Virus record (IMG/VR): IMGVR_UViG_3300042301_004520
Span: 1 to 20,255 of that record
Length of the DNA stretch: 20,255 nt
DNA from: a virus
Reading direction: 5' to 3' (one strand)
The notes under the pieces were generated by a model. It was not told the origin of the DNA, did not search any database, and saw only the letters and a list, made by a program, of their open reading frames with translations. Positions 1 through 8,138 of this stretch are shown here, one piece after another. Each line of letters opens with the position of its first letter. Position 1 is the stretch's first letter. The translations under genes and the position numbers were made by a program.

Positions 1-21
1 GTTGTCAGGCCCTCGAGGAGG

Positions 22-131
22 CCGTTGTCCACAGGCCCCTCCCCCATAGTCCACAGGCTGGGGATATCCTGTGGATAACTTCTGGGGATAAAGGGTTGTG
101 GATAACGGCTACTCGAGGGCGTTATGCACAG
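22..131. other. Cluster of DnaA-box-like sites (candidate replication origin or DnaA-binding locus)
   Basis: Six 9-mers match or nearly match the DnaA box TTATNCACA. They are TTGTCCACA at 25-33 (the form favoured in high-GC actinobacteria), TAGTCCACA at 47-55, TGTGGATAA at 70-78 and 97-105 (exact inverse of TTATCCACA), TGGGGATAA at 83-91 (one mismatch), and TTATGCACA at 122-130 (exact). The three inverse boxes sit at a 13-14 bp period, like a tandem array. A weaker TGGGGATAT lies at 59-67. The cluster follows the 3' end of the HNH gene, in sequence with no coding role that I can see. That it acts as an origin is inference; a titration or regulatory site is the alternative. Confidence 0.65.
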
Positions 132-137
132 GGTAGA

Positions 138-159
138 CCCTTAGCCGGATGGGCTAGGG
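138..159 (-). terminator. Possible weak terminator hairpin at the end of the early operon
   Basis: An inverted repeat pairs 138-146 with 152-159 as eight base pairs with one bulged base and a small loop. It overlaps the TAG stop (154-156) of the HNH gene. There is no U-run after it on the minus-strand transcript, so it would be of the tail-less type. It may simply be chance. Confidence 0.3.
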
Positions 160-504
160 GGTTGGTGGTGGGGTGGTGCGCCTCCTCTCCCTGTCGTAGG
201 TCGCTGCCTTGCTGCTGTTGCATTGTCGACACAAGACTCCGAGATCGTGGTCGACGACGAGGTCGTAGGCGGGGTGGCCGGGTCGGCCTGGATGGTTGGG
301 CATTGTCCAGCCTGGACAGTTGAAGCCGTGAAGGGTGATCCACTCGAGGCGTAGTTGTTGGGAGTTGTAGCGCCAGTTGCCGGCGTACTCCTCCCTCCTA
401 CCCCTCGCCCTACCCCTGGCCCGTTCGTAGGTCCGTCGGCATGGTTGGCATGGTTGGGGTGGGGTTACCCATCCCCCACATGTTTCGCATCTTCGAGCTG
501 CCAT
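154..504 (-). CDS. HNH endonuclease-like protein
   Basis: This 116-aa basic protein has an N-terminal zinc-knuckle-like pattern (CETC near residue 7, CQPC near 17), then an HNH-type core with VVDHD followed by LCRQCNSSKA near the C-terminal third. The CxxC-N-K ending is the usual treble-clef signature of HNH nucleases. Such proteins nick or cut DNA. In many siphoviruses an HNH protein sits beside the terminase genes and helps packaging, which would fit if the genome end lies just left of this window, but the terminase is not visible. The ATG at 504 overlaps the preceding TAA as TAATG. It is the last gene of the early transcript. A homing-type HNH is the alternative. Confidence 0.75.
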   Translation of the reverse strand: MAARRCETCGGWVTPPQPCQPCRRTYERARGRARGRREEYAGNWRYNSQQLRLEWITLHGFNCPGWTMPNHPGRPGHPAYDLVVDHDLGVLCRQCNSSKAATYDRERRRTTPPPTP

Positions 505-926
505 TACAGTTCGGCGAGTTTTTGACGGCCGGCGGTGGTCAGGGTCTGGACACGGCCTTCGGAATCACTGGATGTCTGTCGTGTCTTTGGGTGTCCGGTG
601 ATGTCGATTACATAGCTGACCCATTCAAGCTTTCGACACTCTCCGAGACGGGTTGCGACCTGGTTGCGACTCATTCCGATTCGGTCGGCAATTTCGGCAG
701 CTGTCTGGTCACCATAGGTTTGGAGAAGCTGCATGACAGTGTGGCGTTGCGAGCCGAACTTGATTCGATTAGATGGCGCTCGAGCTGCTTGCTGTGACGT
801 CTCTGGGTGGTAGCGGCCGACCGACGGTTGCAATGTGTGGTCGATGGTTCCCTGACCGTGGCAAGTTGGGCAGGTGATCTCGGCGTGTTCTAGTTCTGCG
901 ATGTGGTCAAACAGTGATGAAGTCAT
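504..926 (-). CDS. Winged-helix DNA-binding protein with N-terminal CPTCHGQG zinc knuckle
   Basis: This 140-aa protein has one CxxC motif in CPTCHGQG (residues 19-26), resembling half of a DnaJ-type zinc knuckle. It then has the phage pattern HPETSQQAA and a helix-turn-helix at about 65-100 (HTVMQLLQTYGDQTAAEIAD, then MSRNQVATRLGECRKLEWV), a typical winged-helix reader. The start is firm, with AAGGAG placed 6 nt before the ATG. It lies 15 nt after the primase/helicase stop and overlaps the HNH start. The likely role is DNA binding in regulation or replication near the candidate origin. The target is unknown. Confidence 0.75.
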   Translation of the reverse strand: MTSSLFDHIAELEHAEITCPTCHGQGTIDHTLQPSVGRYHPETSQQAARAPSNRIKFGSQRHTVMQLLQTYGDQTAAEIADRIGMSRNQVATRLGECRKLEWVSYVIDITGHPKTRQTSSDSEGRVQTLTTAGRQKLAEL

Positions 927-941
927 GTTGCTCCTTGGGGT

Positions 942-3101
942 TTAGAAGATGGGTTGTGTTTGTTGTGTTTCTGGGGTGGCCTCGGACCGCGTCCCCCTAT
1001 AGGGGGGGACGCGTCCCGTTTGGCTCGCTGCTACCGCGTCCCGTTGGGGGTCTACCGCGTCCCGTTTTTCTGAGTCTGTGACGTGGGGTTTTGTTAGCGC
1101 GTCCGGCGCGTCCCACTTTTCACCCTGCGCGTCCCGCTGTCGCGTCCCGTCGAGCGCGTCCCGCTGGATTTCATCGCGTCCGACGCGCTTGTGCGCTTGT
1201 GAATTGGTGGTGATTCCGGCTGTGAGTCTCATGTGTTCCTGGCTGTTCGCTGCCTGTTTGCGGAACTTCAGAGCGGTTCGGATGCGGCTGTCTCTCATCT
1301 TGTGGCCTGCTTCCCTCACGGCTGTTTTGGCGGCGTTGAAGCCGACGTTGTCGGGGAGGTTGAGTGACTCGAGGAGGTCGGCGTCTTGGCGTGTGCCGTC
1401 GGGCCATGCTTGGTCTTGGGCGTCGATGACATAGTCGTGGCCGTGGTCGGTTTCGATGCGGCTGATTCGAATGTCTTGGGGGACCCAGGAGAGGCGTGAG
1501 TGTGTGCGGTTGAGGCGGACTCCGTCGCCTTTGTTTGTGTTGGTTCGTGAGAGCTGCCAGACAATGTCAACGTCGTCGGCTTTGGCGCTGGATCCTCTCA
1601 TTCCTTTTTCGACGGATTTGCCGGAGTGGTCGGTGCGTAGGACTGCGACGCCTCGGGCTTTGAGTGAGAGTCCTGTGTGTCGGTAGAACGCTCGGACTGT
1701 GTCGGCTCGGTCTTCGTCGCCTTCGACTGCACGGCCGAAGGTGTCGACGACTACGAGTTCGGCTTGGGTTTGGTCGACGAGGTGGAGGAGGGCTGTGGCT
1801 CCTTCGATGGTGTCTAGGGGTGGGAGTGAGGGGAGGAGGGCGTAGTGGAGTTTCTCGAGGTTGTCTTGGGGTCCGTAGCCGAGTTCTGTGAGACGTTCGA
1901 TGAGGTCGTCTTCTGTCATTTCGTAGTCGAGGTAGAGGACGTTTGTGGGAATGGCTCGGGTTTGTCCGAGGATTCTGCTGCCGGTGGCGACTGCTGCGAC
2001 GATGGCGAGGGTGATGGTGGATTTGCCTGCTTTGGCTGGGGCGTAGAGGGCGATGGCTCGGCCTTTAGGGATGATGGGTTCGGCCAGCCATTCCTCGTCT
2101 GGTCGGTCGTCTGTCCAAAGTTTCGTCCAGTCGACGAGGTGGGCGAGTTCGATCCGGTTCTCGAGGTGTTCGATGGAGGGTTCGGGTGGGGTGATGAGTT
2201 GGTTTGTGAAGTAGTTGTCGAGGGTTTGGGTTTCTTGTGTGAGGAGATGTGTTGCAGCTGCTGAGCGGTTGCCGTTGTGGTGTCGGCAGGCGTAGTAGCC
2301 GAAGCGTGAGTAGGAGTCTTCGGGGAGCCATGGGATGGAGGAGGTGAAGGTGGTGAGGATGTCTCTGCCTTCATGGCCGACTGTGGCGGAGATTCCTTCT
2401 CGAATGTCTTTGCCTGGTCGGGTCCATTGGGTTTCGCCGGTTGGGAGGGTGGCGGCGAGGGTCCAGCCGTCAGCGTGGAGGAGGTCAGGCCAGGTGGTTT
2501 GTTGGTTGTATCTGGCAGCGATTGAGTCGGTGTCTGACGGCTTGGCGAGGTTGGGTGGTGGTTGTGTCGGTTCGGGTGTGGTGAGGAGTTGCAGGAGCCA
2601 TTCGGGGGCGTCTGCGATGGTGTCGCATCCGTGGTCCCATTGGTAGGCGTTGCCGTTGGGGTGGATGGTTGGTGGTGCGACGATTTGGCCGCCTATGCCT
2701 CGGATGTCGAGTCCTGGTCCGAGGCGTCGGCCGGCGTCGTTTCGGATCTCCTGGCCGGTCGGATAGGTGAAGAGGAGGTGCCAGCCGCCGGAACCGGTGA
2801 TGGACATGAGAGTTTCGGGAAGTCGTCCATATTGTTCCTCGAGGTCGGCGAGGGTTTCGTCTCCGGCTTTGGTGTCGGTGATGTCGACGTCGAGAACGAA
2901 GAATCCGGTTTCAGGGCCGGTGGCTATGCCGATTCCGTGGTCGTGGTAGGGGCCGGTGAACCATTCGGTTATGAGTTCCGGATCTGCTGTGGCGATGTTC
3001 TGCCAGCCGTTCAATGCCGGCCGCTTTTCCCCTGGTCGGATTGGAACGATTCGCCAGCCACGGTTGGCGTACTCGAGTGCTGTCGGGAGCGGGGATGTCA
3101 T
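942..3101 (-). CDS. Bifunctional primase-polymerase / RepA-like AAA+ helicase
   Basis: This 719-aa replication protein has three parts. The N-terminal prim-pol (AEP) domain, about residues 5-170, shows the catalytic DVD at 71-73, SGGWHLLF at 104-111 and LDIRGIGGQIVAPPT at 131-145. A RecA-fold RepA/DnaB-like ATPase, about 330-545, shows Walker A APAKAGKST at 354-362, LDYEM at 391-395, Walker B ELVVVDTF at 448-455 and RTDHSGK at 489-495. A predicted winged-helix segment lies at about 573-620, and a low-complexity charged tail at about 635-719 is rich in RDA triplets. It probably primes DNA synthesis and unwinds the template at the phage origin. The start ATG overlaps the upstream TGA as ATGA. 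The tail-coding DNA carries iteron-like repeats. Confidence 0.9.
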   Translation of the reverse strand: MTSPLPTALEYANRGWRIVPIRPGEKRPALNGWQNIATADPELITEWFTGPYHDHGIGIATGPETGFFVLDVDITDTKAGDETLADLEEQYGRLPETLMSITGSGGWHLLFTYPTGQEIRNDAGRRLGPGLDIRGIGGQIVAPPTIHPNGNAYQWDHGCDTIADAPEWLLQLLTTPEPTQPPPNLAKPSDTDSIAARYNQQTTWPDLLHADGWTLAATLPTGETQWTRPGKDIREGISATVGHEGRDILTTFTSSIPWLPEDSYSRFGYYACRHHNGNRSAAATHLLTQETQTLDNYFTNQLITPPEPSIEHLENRIELAHLVDWTKLWTDDRPDEEWLAEPIIPKGRAIALYAPAKAGKSTITLAIVAAVATGSRILGQTRAIPTNVLYLDYEMTEDDLIERLTELGYGPQDNLEKLHYALLPSLPPLDTIEGATALLHLVDQTQAELVVVDTFGRAVEGDEDRADTVRAFYRHTGLSLKARGVAVLRTDHSGKSVEKGMRGSSAKADDVDIVWQLSRTNTNKGDGVRLNRTHSRLSWVPQDIRISRIETDHGHDYVIDAQDQAWPDGTRQDADLLESLNLPDNVGFNAAKTAVREAGHKMRDSRIRTALKFRKQAANSQEHMRLTAGITTNSQAHKRVGRDEIQRDALDGTRQRDAQGEKWDAPDALTKPHVTDSEKRDAVDPQRDAVAASQTGRVPPYRGTRSEATPETQQTQPIF
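988..1013. repeat. Perfect 10-bp inverted repeat within the primase/helicase 3' end
   Basis: The arm CGCGTCCCCC at 988-997 pairs exactly with GGGGGACGCG at 1004-1013 around the six-base loop TATAGG. It forms the downstream edge (in transcript direction) of the GCGTCC repeat array, and its left arm contains one copy of that repeat. It lies inside coding sequence, so a stem this long and GC-rich suggests a DNA- or RNA-level role such as an origin hairpin, nick site or transcription pause. Confidence 0.75.
989..1183. repeat. Iteron-like array of GCGTCC(C) (ten copies), candidate replication origin
   Basis: The octamer GCGTCCCG occurs exactly at 1011, 1036, 1057, 1129, 1142 and 1156. Close variants start at 989, 1099, 1108 and 1176. 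Two copies lie in a longer identical 15-mer, CTACCGCGTCCCGTT, at 1031-1045 and 1052-1066 (period 21 bp, two helical turns). On the coding strand the unit is CGGGACGC. It is read as R-D-A (or WDA/PDA) in six copies, G-T-R in two, and in a third frame as G-R in two, so the repeat is kept at DNA level rather than as a peptide repeat. Iterons inside or beside the gene of their own initiator are a known plasmid and phage arrangement. Origin function here is inferred. Confidence 0.7.
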
Positions 3102-3295
3102 TGTGTGCCGAGTTCCATTCCGGTGGTGTCTTCAATGGCGGCCATGAGTTCCATCATTCCGGACAGATATTTGGCATTGGTTTCACAGAGCAGCTGGATG
3201 AGGGCGATGGCGTGGCAGAGGTCTTCGTCGAGGGTGTCGGGGTTGGGCCAGAACCTTTGGTTTTTGAGTGCTTGGAGTATGTCGTCGGGTGTCAT
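3098..3295 (-). CDS. Small hypothetical protein (65 aa)
   Basis: This 65-aa protein is not recognised. It appears helical, with an N-terminal MTPDDILQALKNQRFWP segment and a central amphipathic stretch containing two cysteines (DLCHAIALIQLLCETNAKYL) and a methionine-rich run (SGMMELMAA). No membrane segment or signal peptide is evident. It is coupled on both sides by ATGA overlaps, to the preceding HGTR/CRC-HTH gene and to the following primase/helicase. It may therefore be an accessory factor co-translated with the replication protein, but this rests on position alone. Confidence 0.75.
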   Translation of the reverse strand: MTPDDILQALKNQRFWPNPDTLDEDLCHAIALIQLLCETNAKYLSGMMELMAAIEDTTGMELGTQ

Positions 3296-3630
3296 GCTGC
3301 TCCTTCGAGGTAGGGGTCGATCCAGTGGGGCCAGATGATGATGGGGTGGAGTCCGAGGCCGATGGCTGCTCGGTCGGCTGTGTTGTCGGTGAGTCCACGT
3401 TCGAACGATCTGTGGAGGGTTCGGGCGGGGATGCCGGTGAGGTAGGCGAGTTCCACAAATTCGGTGGTTCCTGCCGCTTGGAATAAGGGTTGGATGGGCC
3501 AGTAAAGGGTTCCTGGCTGTTGAATGTGCTGATTTTCGCTGTGGTGCTTATCTGCTGCTCGGTTGGCTTGGCGGCAGGGTTCACATCGACAGCGATGGTA
3601 GGAGTAGCAGGTTCTGGTTCCGTGTTTCAT
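3292..3630 (-). CDS. HGTR...CRCxxC zinc-finger-like protein with C-terminal HTH
   Basis: This 112-aa protein starts with HGTRTCYSYHRCRCEPCRQAN (residues 3-23), a short Cys/His module that also occurs in two other proteins of this phage. A helix-turn-helix-like segment follows at about 58-95 (FVELAYLTGIPARTLHRSFE, then ADRAAIGLGLHP), ending in a tryptophan-rich IIIWPHWIDPY. I chose the ATG at 3630 because it overlaps the TGA of the upstream 58-aa gene as ATGA; the much longer in-frame extension would run through two other genes. It is probably a small DNA-binding regulator. The metal binding is inferred from the cysteines. Confidence 0.75.
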   Translation of the reverse strand: MKHGTRTCYSYHRCRCEPCRQANRAADKHHSENQHIQQPGTLYWPIQPLFQAAGTTEFVELAYLTGIPARTLHRSFERGLTDNTADRAAIGLGLHPIIIWPHWIDPYLEGAA

Positions 3631-3803
3631 CGGCCGTTGACTGTCCACCAGGTGAGGAGTGCTTGGCAGGTTTCGCAGTCGGGGCCGTGGTGGTGGCGGT
3701 GCAGTTTCATCAGCTGCTTCTCGAGCAGGTTGCCGGCGTTGCGGACGAGTTCGATGTCGGTGTGAGAGATGAATACTTCTGGAATGTTGGGGTTGTGGTT
3801 CAT
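3627..3803 (-). CDS. Small hypothetical protein, His/Cys-rich centre (58 aa)
   Basis: This 58-aa protein begins at the ATG at 3803, which shares its first base with the TAA of the Rpf-domain gene (TAATG). It ends in an ATGA overlap with the next gene. The centre holds KLHRHHHGPDCETCQALLTWW. A CxxC next to clustered histidines suggests metal binding. The N-terminal half is predicted helical. The family is not recognised. It could be a small adaptor or regulator. Confidence 0.7.
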   Translation of the reverse strand: MNHNPNIPEVFISHTDIELVRNAGNLLEKQLMKLHRHHHGPDCETCQALLTWWTVNGR

Positions 3804-4339
3804 TAGATCCATCCAAACTTTCGTGAGCAGCCCGGCCACGCTTTCCAGCCGGAAGAGGCCAAGACTTTCTCAGCCACTGCGATCTGTTCTTCTCTTGAGG
3901 CTTCCCATGGATGGGCGGCGTATTCGCTGCCACCAAAGGACCGCCAAGTGGAATAGGAGCGTTGATGCATGAACTGGAGGCCGCCTCCGAATCCGTTGCC
4001 GGTGTTTGCTGCCCAGTTGCCGCCGGCCTCACATTGAGCCAAACGATCCCAGTGTGATCCGTCGCCCTGGTCAAAGTTCGGGACCGGACGTGGAGCCGGT
4101 GCTGTGGTGGTGGTTGTGACTGTGATGAGGTAGGCGTCGAGGTCGGCTAGCGCGCGCGCTGCGTTGTCGGTGAAGTCGTAGCCGATGACTTCGACGGGTT
4201 GCGACTGTGGTGGTGTCTGTTCAATTTCGGCGACTGCTGGGGTGGAGCAGCGGGCGAAGATGACAGCTGCTGCTAGGAGGAGTGCTATTGCTAGACAGCC
4301 GGCGGTTGTTTCTTTCCAGTGGCTTTCGGTTTCATCCAT
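3803..4339 (-). CDS. Membrane-anchored Rpf-domain (lysozyme-like transglycosylase) protein
   Basis: This 178-aa protein has one N-terminal hydrophobic segment (about 13-29, [17 protein letters not shown]), a spacer and a Thr/Pro linker ([15 protein letters not shown], about 73-87). A C-terminal resuscitation-promoting-factor domain spans about 97-176. The domain shows [13 protein letters not shown] with the catalytic Glu at about 104, [15 protein letters not shown], and a late Cys at about 171 that can pair with Cys103. Rpf domains cleave peptidoglycan glycan strands and wake dormant actinobacteria. The ATG at 4339 is preceded by GAGGAAA, so longer in-frame starts were rejected. It is encoded among replication genes, not beside the endolysin. 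Its first 49 nt overlap the zinc-ribbon gene in another frame. Confidence 0.88.
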
Positions 4340-4464
4340 TGCGGGTTTCCTCGAGTCTTTCGTGTGCAGCTGCGACAAAGCACGGCCAGCACGGGTTGTG
4401 GGGTCGAGTATTCGTTGGCGCATTTTGGGCAGCGCCAGTCCCGATGTTTGTTTGCCGAGGTCAC
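4291..4464 (-). CDS. Small zinc-ribbon protein (57 aa, GTG start)
   Basis: The reading frame has 57 codons starting at GTG 4464, which overlaps the TGA of the preceding gene as GTGA. It ends at TAG 4291-4293, inside the 5' end of the Rpf gene. The peptide has CPKC at residues 12-15 and CRSC at 30-33, then a basic tail ([20 protein letters not shown]). The two knuckles 14 residues apart are a standard zinc ribbon. The overlap geometry, the paired CxxC motifs and the otherwise unexplained 121-nt gap make it a convincing gene. It probably binds nucleic acid or protein. The exact role is unknown. Confidence 0.8.
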
Positions 4465-4670
4465 GTCAGGGTTCGGGAGCGGTCGTAGATGGGGAAGGGG
4501 ACGTTGTCTGGGTCTCGTCGGGTCCAGGAGGCGAGTTTCTGGGCGATCTGGAAGGCGTCGGCGTGATTGTTGGATGTCGCCAAGGTGATCCGTTCCGCTC
4601 CTTGTGACGCTTCCACTAGGAAGAGGTTTCGGTGGTGGTCAGTGCGGATGAGGATGTGTGCTTTGTCCAT
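4461..4670 (-). CDS. Small hypothetical protein (69 aa)
   Basis: This 69-aa protein starts [20 protein letters not shown]. It appears to alternate beta strands with a central helix ([15 protein letters not shown]) and ends in a Pro/Arg-rich tail. I do not recognise the family. The ATG at 4670 is preferred over the in-frame start at 4706, because the longer version would read through one arm of the 4692-4731 hairpin and add a peptide unlike the rest. It is the first gene after that hairpin and is joined to the zinc-ribbon gene by GTGA. Confidence 0.65.
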
Positions 4671-4691
4671 GTCTGGTCTTTCGGGTTGGTG

Positions 4692-4731
4692 AAGCAGCCC
4701 CACCACAGTTCGGGTTGTGGTGGGGCTGCTT
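4692..4731 (-). terminator. Strong 16-bp hairpin between the RHH gene and the next operon segment
   Basis: A perfect 16-bp inverted repeat has arms AAGCAGCCCCACCACA at 4692-4707 and TGTGGTGGGGCTGCTT at 4716-4731, with loop GTTCGGGT. It begins 4 nt after the RHH stop codon and ends 21 nt before the next ATG. No U-run follows on the minus transcript, so it would be a tail-less terminator, an attenuator allowing partial read-through, or an RNA-stability stem. No promoter is obvious between it and the next gene, so some read-through is expected. Confidence 0.75.
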
Positions 4732-4734
4732 AGG

Positions 4735-4881
4735 TCAGGCGCTCGGTTTGGTGTCTGCCAGATAGGCGTCGAGTGCCCTACGGATGAAGGTGGATCGGTT
4801 CACTCCAAGACGTTTGGCTGTCTCGTCGATTTGGTCGATGAGGTCCTGGTCGAGTTGTGCGCCAATCAGTCGCTTTCCCAT
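4735..4881 (-). CDS. Ribbon-helix-helix (CopG/Arc-type) DNA-binding protein, 48 aa
   Basis: A 48-aa reading frame runs from ATG 4881 to TGA 4735-4737. It reads as a short basic beta strand (KRLIGAQLD, 3-11), a first helix (QDLIDQIDETAKRL, 12-25), a GVN turn and a second helix (STFIRRALDAYLAD, 30-43). This is the complete ribbon-helix-helix fold, whose dimers insert the strand into the major groove of operator DNA. It starts one base after the OB-fold gene's stop codon and is followed at once by the 16-bp hairpin. It is a candidate autoregulator of the early genes; its operator is not identified, though the repeat in the 9614-9642 promoter is a possible target. Confidence 0.85.
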   Translation of the reverse strand: MGKRLIGAQLDQDLIDQIDETAKRLGVNRSTFIRRALDAYLADTKPSA

Positions 4882-4882
4882 G

Positions 4883-5311
4883 TCACATCAGGTCGTCGGC
4901 GCTGATTGAGGCCGGCTTGGGTGGCTGGTATTGGGCAACATACTTTTTCGCTGGGTTGAGTCCGGCTTTCGTCGGTGGCTCGTCTTCCTGGTACTTGACG
5001 GCCAAGATCCCGCCGGCCTCGAGGTTGCAGTCGGCCTTCGTGAGGGCGTCTTTGATTGCCCCAAGCATGAATCCTTTGGCGAAGATTCGTGTTTCCTCTT
5101 GGGTGTCCTGGTCGATGCCGGTGAAGACGAACTGCATTTTGGGTTTGCCGTCTGCCCAGGTGATGGGTTCTCCGGTGATGAAGTCGGTTTGTTGCCGTTC
5201 TTCGAGTCCGGTGATTTTGATTTTGACCATGTCGCCGATGTTCGGGAACTTGGCAATGTTGCCGCCACCTTTTCGGGTGAGGGCCTCTGCTGCTGTGTTG
5301 TCAAATGTCAC
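4883..5311 (-). CDS. Probable single-stranded-DNA-binding / OB-fold replication protein
   Basis: This 142-aa protein, GTG start, overlaps the exonuclease stop as GTGA. It has a beta-rich core (MVKIKITGLEERQQTDFITG, KPKMQFVFTGIDQ, ETRIFAKGFMLGAIKDAL, GGILAVKYQ) and a flexible Pro/Lys region. It ends in an acidic-hydrophobic tip, SADDLM, resembling the protein-recruiting tail of SSB proteins. The position, directly after a RecB-like exonuclease, fits a recombination/replication pair. The OB fold is inferred from pattern and context, with no diagnostic motif. An alternative is another small exonuclease-associated recombination factor. Confidence 0.6.
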   Translation of the reverse strand: MTFDNTAAEALTRKGGGNIAKFPNIGDMVKIKITGLEERQQTDFITGEPITWADGKPKMQFVFTGIDQDTQEETRIFAKGFMLGAIKDALTKADCNLEAGGILAVKYQEDEPPTKAGLNPAKKYVAQYQPPKPASISADDLM

Positions 5312-6924
5312 TGTTGGGTTTCCTTGTCTGTCGGGGAGCCACCTTTGATGGCTGTGACGATGTCACCTTCCAACCGGCAACCGTTCTCATCCCACATTGG
5401 GACGAGGTCGAGGTTGTTGATGGCGGTGACGATTCCGAGAGCCGCTTTGGCCTCGGCCTTTCGGAGAGTGCCAAAGGCGTCTCCGAGAGAATGGTGAGGG
5501 ATCTTTTGGTCGGTCGCATTGTCTAGCACCGTCCAAGTCAGCTCGTCATCGCGATGAACAGCAAGGTCGATGATGGCTTGGCAGATCAGGTAGCGACGTT
5601 CCGCTGGGATCCCTTGTGGCGGTGAGAGTGCGAGGGTTCGGCCACAAGCTTTGGCGTCCTCGAGAATGTTTTTCACCCAGAGGAGCGCTTCTTCTGGGAG
5701 TTCCATTGCCCGTTCGTTGAGTCGGTTGATGATGTCGGTGTGGATCAGGGTGTCGGTGCCGTCATTTACTGCCCTTCGCCTGGTCGACTTTTTGGGTGGT
5801 ACGGGTGGCGGGTTGAGGTCGGGGAGTGACGCGAAGGGGAGGCCGAGTTCTTTTTCGAGTACGTCGAGTACGCGTGAGATCCCGTCGCCCTGGTCCAAGG
5901 TGATCGGGTCGCCAGATTTCAGGGTTGGGTGTCCGTCGGGCCAGGCGTCGGCGAGTGCTTGGGCGTGGCCGTCGACAATGATTCGGGAGATTCGGTCGAG
6001 TGTCGCGATTCGCCACGGATCGTCGACGTGTTGCACTTGTCCCGGCCGCTGGCGTCCGTAGAGGGCCGCTGTGGCTTGCTGTGGGGTGAAGGGGTGGATG
6101 GGTGTGTATTTGCGGAGCCGGCGTACCTCGAGGGCTGTGTGGAGCGCTTCTGTTCCGGCTTCGAGATCCAGCCAGTGGAGTTCGGCGAGGCCGGAGCCTG
6201 GTTGACAGTGAATGATGATTCCGGCCGATTTGGAGACGTTCGGCATGGGTTCACGGATGTCTTGCGAGCCGTCTTTGGCTGGGCCTTGGGTGTAAAGGTT
6301 GGAGGCGTTTGCGTAGATGGAGAGCTGGATGGCAAAGCCGAGTCCGCCATATTTGACGGAGCTGCCAGTTTTAAGGTCGGCGATGAAGGTTTCTTCGCCA
6401 TCGGTGAGGGCAAGGTCGAAGGTTCCAGCTACTTCGATTTCGTCATTCACCACGATGCGTTCGGTCATGCCGTCAACAAAGGACAGTCCAGCATCGGAGA
6501 GGGCGGAGAGGATGGCTTCGATGTCGGCCTGGTATGGGTCGGGGGCGATGAACGTGGGGTCTTTGAGGCGACGTTCGAGCAGTCCGTGGACAGCGGTTCC
6601 GAGATCCCGTCGGACTGTGGCTCCGCCTGCTTCGGACGCGCGCTTCACCAAAGAGTCCAGCGTCTTTTTGTCGTCTTGTGGGGTGGTGGCGACGAGGGCG
6701 ACGAGGTCTGGTCGTAGTCCGAGACCGATGGCGGTCATTCGAGAGTTCCAGGCCATGAGACTCGAGGAGTCATCCAGAATCTTGGAAACCGTCGTCGCCC
6801 GGGTGTAGCCGACCAGTTTCTCTCCTCGAGGGGGGAGGACTTGGTAGCGGCCCCATCGGTCCCGGCGGGTTTCTTGGATGGGCTGGTTGAGGCTGTTGAT
6901 TGCTTCAGGGTCTAGCGTTGTCAT
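5308..6924 (-). CDS. RecB/Cas4-like PD-(D/E)XK exonuclease with a novel C-terminal extension
   Basis: The N-terminal part of this 538-aa protein, about residues 20-290, carries the RecB-type nuclease signature. It shows GTAVHGLLERRL with His113, EVAGTFD with Asp170, IADLKTG with Asp183 and Lys185, and QLSIYANA (QxxxY, Gln200/Tyr204). The enzyme class resects double-stranded DNA in a metal-dependent reaction, making 3' ends for recombination or genome processing. After a Pro/Lys/Arg linker (about 371-384) comes a helical C-terminal region of about 140 residues that I do not recognise, possibly a partner-binding domain. AGGAG lies 8 nt before the ATG. It is followed with a GTGA overlap by the SSB-like gene. 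Confidence 0.85.
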   Translation of the reverse strand: MTTLDPEAINSLNQPIQETRRDRWGRYQVLPPRGEKLVGYTRATTVSKILDDSSSLMAWNSRMTAIGLGLRPDLVALVATTPQDDKKTLDSLVKRASEAGGATVRRDLGTAVHGLLERRLKDPTFIAPDPYQADIEAILSALSDAGLSFVDGMTERIVVNDEIEVAGTFDLALTDGEETFIADLKTGSSVKYGGLGFAIQLSIYANASNLYTQGPAKDGSQDIREPMPNVSKSAGIIIHCQPGSGLAELHWLDLEAGTEALHTALEVRRLRKYTPIHPFTPQQATAALYGRQRPGQVQHVDDPWRIATLDRISRIIVDGHAQALADAWPDGHPTLKSGDPITLDQGDGISRVLDVLEKELGLPFASLPDLNPPPVPPKKSTRRRAVNDGTDTLIHTDIINRLNERAMELPEEALLWVKNILEDAKACGRTLALSPPQGIPAERRYLICQAIIDLAVHRDDELTWTVLDNATDQKIPHHSLGDAFGTLRKAEAKAALGIVTAINNLDLVPMWDENGCRLEGDIVTAIKGGSPTDKETQQ

Positions 6925-6956
6925 TTGAGTTTCTCCTGGTCGGGTTGGAGGTTGTT

Positions 6957-7184
6957 ATGTGGCCGTTGTTGTTGTCGCTGTTTGAGCTGCTGGGTGTGTT
7001 TGGTATGTGGCAGGCCGGTCGGGGCCGGTGGTGGGGTTGGTTGGTGGTGATGTTGCATTCGTGGCCGTGGGCCATCTACGCCATCGTCTCAAACCAACCG
7101 GGGTTCCTCTTCATGTTTGCGATGTGGCAAGTGGTGAATGGTTGGAACTGCTGGTCTTGGTTTCATCGTCCCCGAAGCCTGTGA
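6957..7184 (+). CDS. Small multi-pass membrane protein, the only plus-strand gene
   Basis: This 75-aa, very tryptophan-rich protein has about three hydrophobic segments (WPLLLSLFELLGVFGMW, WWGWLVVMLHSWPWAIYAIV, GFLFMFAMWQVV) and a short basic end. The shape, with WWGW and a following YAI plus GFLF, matches a small membrane protein that recurs in actinophages. GGAGG stands 5 nt before the ATG. It fills the gap between two minus-strand genes, and its last 74 nt converge with the 3' end of the HTH gene. Minus-strand transcription of the early operon would be antisense to it. Possible roles are membrane modification, superinfection exclusion or lysis timing; none is shown by the sequence. Confidence 0.75.
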   Translation: MWPLLLSLFELLGVFGMWQAGRGRWWGWLVVMLHSWPWAIYAIVSNQPGFLFMFAMWQVVNGWNCWSWFHRPRSL

Positions 7185-7779
7185 CAGTCGCGCGCATTGC
7201 CCGAGATTTGATCGTCCGTTCGTTGCTGAGCCGGCGTTCCTCGACGATGCGGAACATGATTTGATGGTGCAGCTGCTGGACCGCCTCGGCTGTGGACTTT
7301 CGGATCTTGGTTTTAGAGATTTGCAAAGCGCGCGCGTCAGGGTTGCCGTTGATGTGGCGGGCGATTTGTGCGCGAGTGCAGCCGTGTTTGAGTAGGTCGT
7401 TGATGAGGCGCCAGGTGGGTTTGGCGTCGACGAGTGTTCCGCCAGCTGCTCTGTGTCGGCCGACAGCCAAGATCCGGTCGGCTGTTTTGGGTCGGATGCG
7501 AAGAAGTTGCCCTGAGGCGATCTTTTGAATGGTGGACAGGGCCACTCCGGAGGTGGCGTGGATTTGCCGTCTCCCGACTCCTACTTTGCGAAGCCATTGG
7601 ATGTGTTCTCGAGTTTCGGTGGCGTCAATGAAGATCACTGCTGGCGCTTCGATGCCGTAGGCGACTCGACGTTCTGTTCTGTCTCGTTCTCTGGCGTAGA
7701 GTCGATTGGCGATGGTGCAGGGTTGGCAGCGGCATTTTTCGACAACATATTTGGCTCGGGTGCCGTGTTCCCTGGTCAT
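7111..7779 (-). CDS. HGTR...CRCxxC module fused to HTH domains, DNA-binding regulator
   Basis: This 222-aa basic protein starts at ATG 7779, in an ATGA overlap with the WhiB gene. It opens with HGTRAKYVVEKCRCQPCTIA (residues 5-24), the same Cys/His module found at the end of the WhiB protein and in the 3292-3630 protein. Two HTH-like regions follow, at about 68-105 (VGRRQIHATSGVALSTIQKI, XRE-like) and 124-165 (RLINDLLKHGCTRAQIARHI). The Ser/Thr-rich C-terminus extends over the plus-strand gene, so the last 20 or so residues look unconstrained. It is probably a transcription regulator made together with WhiB. Confidence 0.75.
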   Translation of the reverse strand: MTREHGTRAKYVVEKCRCQPCTIANRLYARERDRTERRVAYGIEAPAVIFIDATETREHIQWLRKVGVGRRQIHATSGVALSTIQKIASGQLLRIRPKTADRILAVGRHRAAGGTLVDAKPTWRLINDLLKHGCTRAQIARHINGNPDARALQISKTKIRKSTAEAVQQLHHQIMFRIVEERRLSNERTIKSRAMRATVTGFGDDETKTSSSNHSPLATSQT

Positions 7780-8138
7780 CGTTTGTTCCATTCGGCTCGG
7801 AATCGGGCGTTGGAGAGGCGGCATTCTGGGCAGCGGCAGCCGACCGCATAGCGGCGTCTTGTGCCGTGTGGGGCGTTGGGAAGTTTGATTCCCTGTTCGA
7901 GCCGATAGGCGCGTCGGTCTTTTTCGGTCATGCCAGCCCAGATTCCGTATCGTTCGGGGTTGTAGGTGACGTATTCGCGACAGTTGTCGATGACTGGGCA
8001 GGTTTTGCAGATGGCTTTTGCCCTGTTCATTTGGGTGGTGTCGCCACGGTTCACGAAGAACAGGTCGGTGCGGCCTTTGCACGCTGCCCGGTCGGTCCAA
8101 ATGTCTTGTAGGTCGGGGTGTTGCTCGGGTTGGTTCAC
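7776..8138 (-). CDS. WhiB-family [4Fe-4S] transcription regulator with extra C-terminal CRCxxC module
   Basis: This 120-aa protein (GTG start, GTGA overlap) has the four WhiB cysteines at residues 20, 44, 47 and 53 (CKG; CKTCPVIDNC). The turn GIWAGMTEKDRR at 65-76 follows. WhiB proteins bind a [4Fe-4S] cluster and act with the major sigma factor; they are confined to Actinobacteria and their phages. Beyond the usual domain, residues 91-111 (HGTRRRYAVGCRCPECRLSN) form a second Cys module shared with the two HTH proteins here. It may rewire host promoters or block host WhiB-dependent functions. Confidence 0.93.
   Translation of the reverse strand: MNQPEQHPDLQDIWTDRAACKGRTDLFFVNRGDTTQMNRAKAICKTCPVIDNCREYVTYNPERYGIWAGMTEKDRRAYRLEQGIKLPNAPHGTRRRYAVGCRCPECRLSNARFRAEWNKR

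Follow-up and report, generated by a model that had tools for sequence, protein, structure and literature searches.

In a phage genome, the stretch that begins in the prim-pol 3' end and reaches across the cohesive-end site (cos) is best read as a replication-origin region of the iteron-plus-DnaA-box kind, a reading to which we give, from sequence comparison, a probability of roughly 55%. The window analysed here is the whole of an IMG/VR contig (IMGVR_UViG_3300042301_004520; 20,255 bases). It holds two features of such an origin, namely a DnaA-box cluster and a direct-repeat array near a candidate initiator gene. We know of few tailed phages that use host DnaA, and in the open-access papers searched no earlier description of such arrays beside a phage cos was found.

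DnaA-box-like sites at the left end of the window

The array lies between a small HNH-like gene and base 1, and its neighbouring genes read leftwards on the minus strand. Its parts are as follows.

1-10: genome terminus (cos edge), placed by coincident contig ends and spanning relatives; the plus strand starts GTTGTC and the minus strand ends ...GACAAC
25-33, plus strand: exact DnaA-box-like site TTGTCCACA, kept in most relatives
34-46: GC-rich inter-box element (minus strand TGGGGGAGGGGCC), conserved across relatives in alignment
47-55, plus strand: near-match TAGTCCACA with one mismatch; L004 and L015 have exact TTGTCCACA here
70-78, minus strand: exact DnaA-box-like site TTATCCACA; L004 and L006 have TTGTCCACA here
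83-91, minus strand: near-match TTATCCCCA with one mismatch
97-105, minus strand: exact DnaA-box-like site TTATCCACA, the best conserved box of the left half
122-130, plus strand: exact DnaA-box-like site TTATGCACA, kept in L002, L003, L004 and L015

A sequence-only reading of this DNA had reported six DnaA-box-like sites in 110 bp, three of them with a 13-14 bp period. All six were recovered where it had placed them (22-131), as four exact nonamers and two sites with a single mismatch, and the start-to-start steps of the sites at 70, 83 and 97 are 13 and 14 bp. The comparison with shuffled composition that it proposed was made with first-order Markov simulations (n = 1000), in which a window held 0.34 exact sites on average and never more than two per 110 bp, against the four observed. 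These four, all within the 25-130 cluster, are the only exact matches in the 20,255 bases. The array region is among the least stable 40-mers, and no separate AT-rich unwinding element was found apart from it. GC skew is uninformative as an origin marker, being nearly monotonic in a genome that is read in one direction. A similarity search of positions 1-8000 against phage records returned just two short unrelated matches, and a comparison of the box array with plasmids returned one weak match.

An array divided by the genome ends

Five contigs that span the end of the window (L002, L003, L004, L015 and L052) read ...CAAC, then CCCTGCGCCC, then CCCTTCTCGC... The equivalent ...CAAC is a contig end in the window and in L006, L008, L009 and L010, relatives found via prim-pol, and CCCTTCTCGC is the start of many other contigs. 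From these contig ends we deduce that base 1 of the window would be a cohesive end, with CCCTGCGCCC as a putative 10-nt overhang. The array accordingly does not stop at the edge of the window, because base 1 is cos and the array resumes opposite it in the relatives. The cluster of the sequence-only reading is thus real, but it is not isolated: in the relatives that span cos, it runs on along the terminase side. Two contigs of 34.86 kb carry boxes at both of their ends.

Some further observations concern these termini. The contig end ...CAAC of L007 was considered as a cos and rejected, as L052 reads through it. In L054 and L055, the same extra stretch (the first ~57 bases) precedes the cos sequence; it probably reflects a variant end or an error of assembly. 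In the right half-array of L055, L059 and L254, the inverted repeat CCGGCAGG/CCTGCCGG surrounds one box, in a shorter form in L055, and is followed by a terminator-like T run on the opposite strand.

Conservation of the array in relatives

The array is found at the same place in L002, L003, L004, L015, L006, L008, L009, L052 and others, which bears out the conservation that the sequence-only reading had set as a test. The highest count among the relatives is that of L004, with 14 TTNTCCACA sites in 370 bp straddling cos. In an alignment of the right half, identity is 94% at box positions, 56% at the third base of the box and 72% in non-box columns; box columns were picked by motif match, which inflates their conservation, so that the third base within the same columns is the fairer comparison. 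At this third base A, G and T are nearly equal and C is at about 1%, and such variation, limited to the third base, is DnaA-like. Spacing is also shared, with steps of 12-17-12-32-16-14 common to L002 and L051 and the first four of them present in L254. A cluster that is conserved in relatives and that varies as DnaA boxes do makes recruitment of host DnaA the best reading. No boxes lie left of cos in L010.

The same sites could instead titrate host DnaA and so stop host initiation, as datA does, with no part in phage replication. Each genome offers many strong-type sites, multiplied by phage copy number, which is what titration would use; it needs, however, no fixed place beside cos or near a replication gene, no conserved spacing and no enrichment by primase-helicase and terminase genes (below), and we consider it unlikely.

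Beyond cos the relatives encode a TerS-like protein (Terminase_7, E 0.0016, below the family cut-off), then TerL (phrog_9, E 8e-57) and then a portal protein. In phage lambda, the R sites of cosB are repeats beside cos on the terS side. The present site resembles a lambda-type cos (cosN/cosB) in that terS and terL adjoin a cohesive-end site and that repeats occur, and are densest, towards the terminase genes; the repeats might therefore be a cosB-like packaging site for the phage TerS, their likeness to DnaA boxes being incidental. Repeats of that function would be expected wherever TerS and cos are homologous, and this was not found: among TerS homologues with 33-55% identity (L060-L063 and others), several of which keep the cos core, boxes are absent both from the interval between cos and terS and from the flank examined. 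Box array and cos are thus separable, and this speaks against packaging as the only role. Hum25 and Bridgette, with genome ends that resemble those of the cultured phage Seahorse (below), likewise carry no boxes there. The repeats of the window phage differ further from those of lambda in being DnaA-box-like, with the degeneracy expected of DnaA boxes, and in lying on the HNH side of cos as well. Taken together, these points make the packaging site quite unlikely.

The host of this phage appears to be actinobacterial, since the related genome G008 encodes WhiB together with an Rpf-like transglycosylase; the window also has an Rpf-like transglycosylase. The prim-pol relatives in cellular genomes are distant matches only, in actinobacterial genomes and MAGs. 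The dnaA loci sampled from Acidimicrobiia and Actinomycetes have few clustered exact boxes, with C common at the third base, and matching of the array to a host oriC was dropped as the loci of these two classes were too poor in such boxes.

Genes next to the array

Three genes lie nearby, one of which contains a second array.

154-504, minus strand: small HNH-like endonuclease gene with Cys pairs and DLVVDHD...CRQCNSSK; a neighbour of cos that is kept in close relatives
504-926, minus strand: winged-helix (HTH_24) gene between the prim-pol and HNH genes
942-3101, minus strand: Prim-Pol / RecA-fold helicase fusion of 719 aa (Prim-Pol E 1e-46, AAA_25 E 5e-28)
988-1181: iteron-like array inside the prim-pol 3' end, in which GGACGCG/CGCGTCC occurs 11 times, most copies reading GGGACGCG on the coding strand

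The sequence-only reading had seen no polymerase in the window, which was mistaken: the Prim-Pol and AAA_25 helicase domains are encoded 0.8 kb from the box array. It had also overlooked the iteron-like array in this gene and the position of the cluster at cos. A structure prediction of modest confidence (mean pLDDT 63.7) gives this protein a helical unit (570-627) and, after it, a predicted disordered tail (624-719). The HNH homologue of L004 has only a weak HNH_5 match (E 0.058). Along nearly the whole strand that bears the terS-to-prim-pol genes in G008 (L280 and L281), C exceeds G.

Since a motif alone does not name its binder, the sites might also serve in transcriptional control, bound by some other protein of the phage (a regulator) or of the host. 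The nearby winged-helix gene would suit such a role, but it was not found among the relatives examined; box-bearing relatives lack it, so the gene is not needed for the boxes, and its product was rejected as the box binder. A scan of the array region in L004, limited to sigma-70-like promoters, found none. We regard transcriptional control as highly improbable.

Iteron-like array in the prim-pol gene

The replication-origin reading rests in its second part on the array at 988-1181, a candidate initiator-binding array judged by its sequence. The rest of the window holds just three copies of GGACGCG/CGCGTCC. Within the array the motif occurs in all three reading frames, which indicates that it is conserved as DNA, and the protein segment that it encodes is the predicted disordered tail.

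Most of the iteron-like positions are kept in L002 to L009. In L010, six of the positions are kept with another motif, CCGCCGC, an overlap that none of 2000 random placements equalled. L013 carries the motif CGGGAACCG with a spacing of 20, 14, 13, 21, 9, 32, 21, 25, against 20, 14, 13, 21, 9, 42, 21, 25, 22 in the window; the two are equal save for one gap that is 10 bp shorter. Arrays of related motifs are found in L016, L018, L019 and L180. Across several lineages, the arrays in prim-pol 3' ends keep their spacing constant while their motif switches in concert, and further motifs seen in these 3' ends are CGGGGACA and GCGGGACA.

The prim-pol relatives L012-L021 have no paired TTRTCCACA boxes in contigs of at most 34.5 kb, which are possibly incomplete, and this indicates that replicons of this type can do without the boxes. 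As L013 and L016 have the iteron-like array without paired boxes, the DnaA boxes would be an accessory of the replicon type.

Similar arrays in other phages

When viral contigs were scanned for stretches with three spaced boxes, at least 120 were found (L117-L236), where a rough hand estimate of the chance expectation is below one. These 120 contigs were chosen solely by their DnaA-box arrays, and the controls by an arbitrary 14-mer. An A1-like prim-pol is present in 14 of the 120 box-array contigs listed and in 0 of 120 controls, and a dnaA gene in none of those 120 box-array contigs. The longest neighbouring ORFs of the box-array contigs listed most often encode TerL (19/109, one PHROG), portal protein and primase-helicase (13-14/109), whereas those of the controls are tail or tail-fibre genes, in a control set that is partly redundant, with one 2052-nt ORF common to many contigs.

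In L120, L169, L170 and L188, similar arrays follow prim-pol on its downstream side, at an internal position in the contig. An AT-rich near-palindrome, TTAACATAATGGACATTGTATTAAATGG, is common to L169, L170 and L188 beside their box arrays and is possibly an unwinding element or operator.

The interior arrays bear on another explanation, in which a DnaA-bound end structure would act in DNA entry or end joining, either as an injection pause or by holding the ends for ligation. Here boxes are present in the outermost 200 bp or so at both genome ends, in keeping with such a role. The injection stop signal of phage T5 sits about 8-9% into the genome and not at its tip. This signal is reported to include DnaA boxes, although their role is unproven (PMC13250531). 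T5 and the window phage share the presence of DnaA boxes; they differ in phage type, in the structure of the repeats and in position, the boxes of the window phage being at the very termini. With arrays also found inside contigs, a role in entry or joining seems very unlikely.

Cultured phages offer a parallel. In the Arthrobacter phages Seahorse and Tiff81, boxes lie between an HNH gene and the right genome end, so that the order of HNH gene, TTATCCACA boxes, genome end and terminase is that of the window phage. Seahorse has three TTATCCACA boxes and one TTGTGCACA, and at its other genome end a small TerS-like gene and TerL. These phages differ from the window phage in having fewer boxes, on one side of the end only, and other replication genes, including a PolIII beta clamp (in Seahorse, NC_070836 47706-48782). 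The Seahorse clamp together with the end boxes hints at use of a host-type replisome.

Comparison with known origins and a proposed mechanism

In phage lambda, the iterons of ori lie inside the coding region of gene O, and their motifs differ between related phages. The window phage resembles lambda in having iterons within the coding region of a replication gene, with motifs that differ between relatives. In lambda, however, ori lies at a distance from cos and depends on the O iterons, whereas here the candidate initiator is the Prim-Pol/helicase and DnaA boxes flank cos.

The origins P1 oriR, RK2 oriV and pSC101 are of the theta type and rely both on host DnaA and on an initiator that the element itself encodes (review PMC4980987). 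As in the present region, a replication gene lies there close to an iteron array and an array of DnaA boxes, all within a short stretch of DNA. In the window phage, in contrast, cos interrupts the DnaA array, the iteron-like sites lie inside the Prim-Pol/helicase coding sequence and the initiator is a candidate. For how the candidate origin would work, iteron plasmids and P1 oriR are the nearest models.

In the mechanism that we propose, DnaA binding, the identity of the initiator, origin firing and dependence on circularisation are all steps that we infer. The iteron-like array in the prim-pol gene would be the target of a phage initiator, a role that probably falls to the Prim-Pol/helicase, and host DnaA would bind the TTDTCCACA sites to the left and right of cos. 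Bound DnaA would then help to open the origin and bring in host replication factors. On injection, the linear genome would circularise, and its left and right halves would form one contiguous array; because cos lies inside the array, the halves are contiguous only after circularisation. It is possible, though doubtful, that this is a DnaA-dependent origin split by cos in which the joining of the half-arrays at the cohesive ends licenses replication. With its centre at cos, such an array points to a simple means of coupling replication to circularisation. Cos-side arrays exist in cultured Arthrobacter phages, and the arrangement is thus testable there. Iteron-like arrays in prim-pol genes, with fixed spacing and switching motifs, could likewise be used to find candidate origins in many phages that are uncultured.
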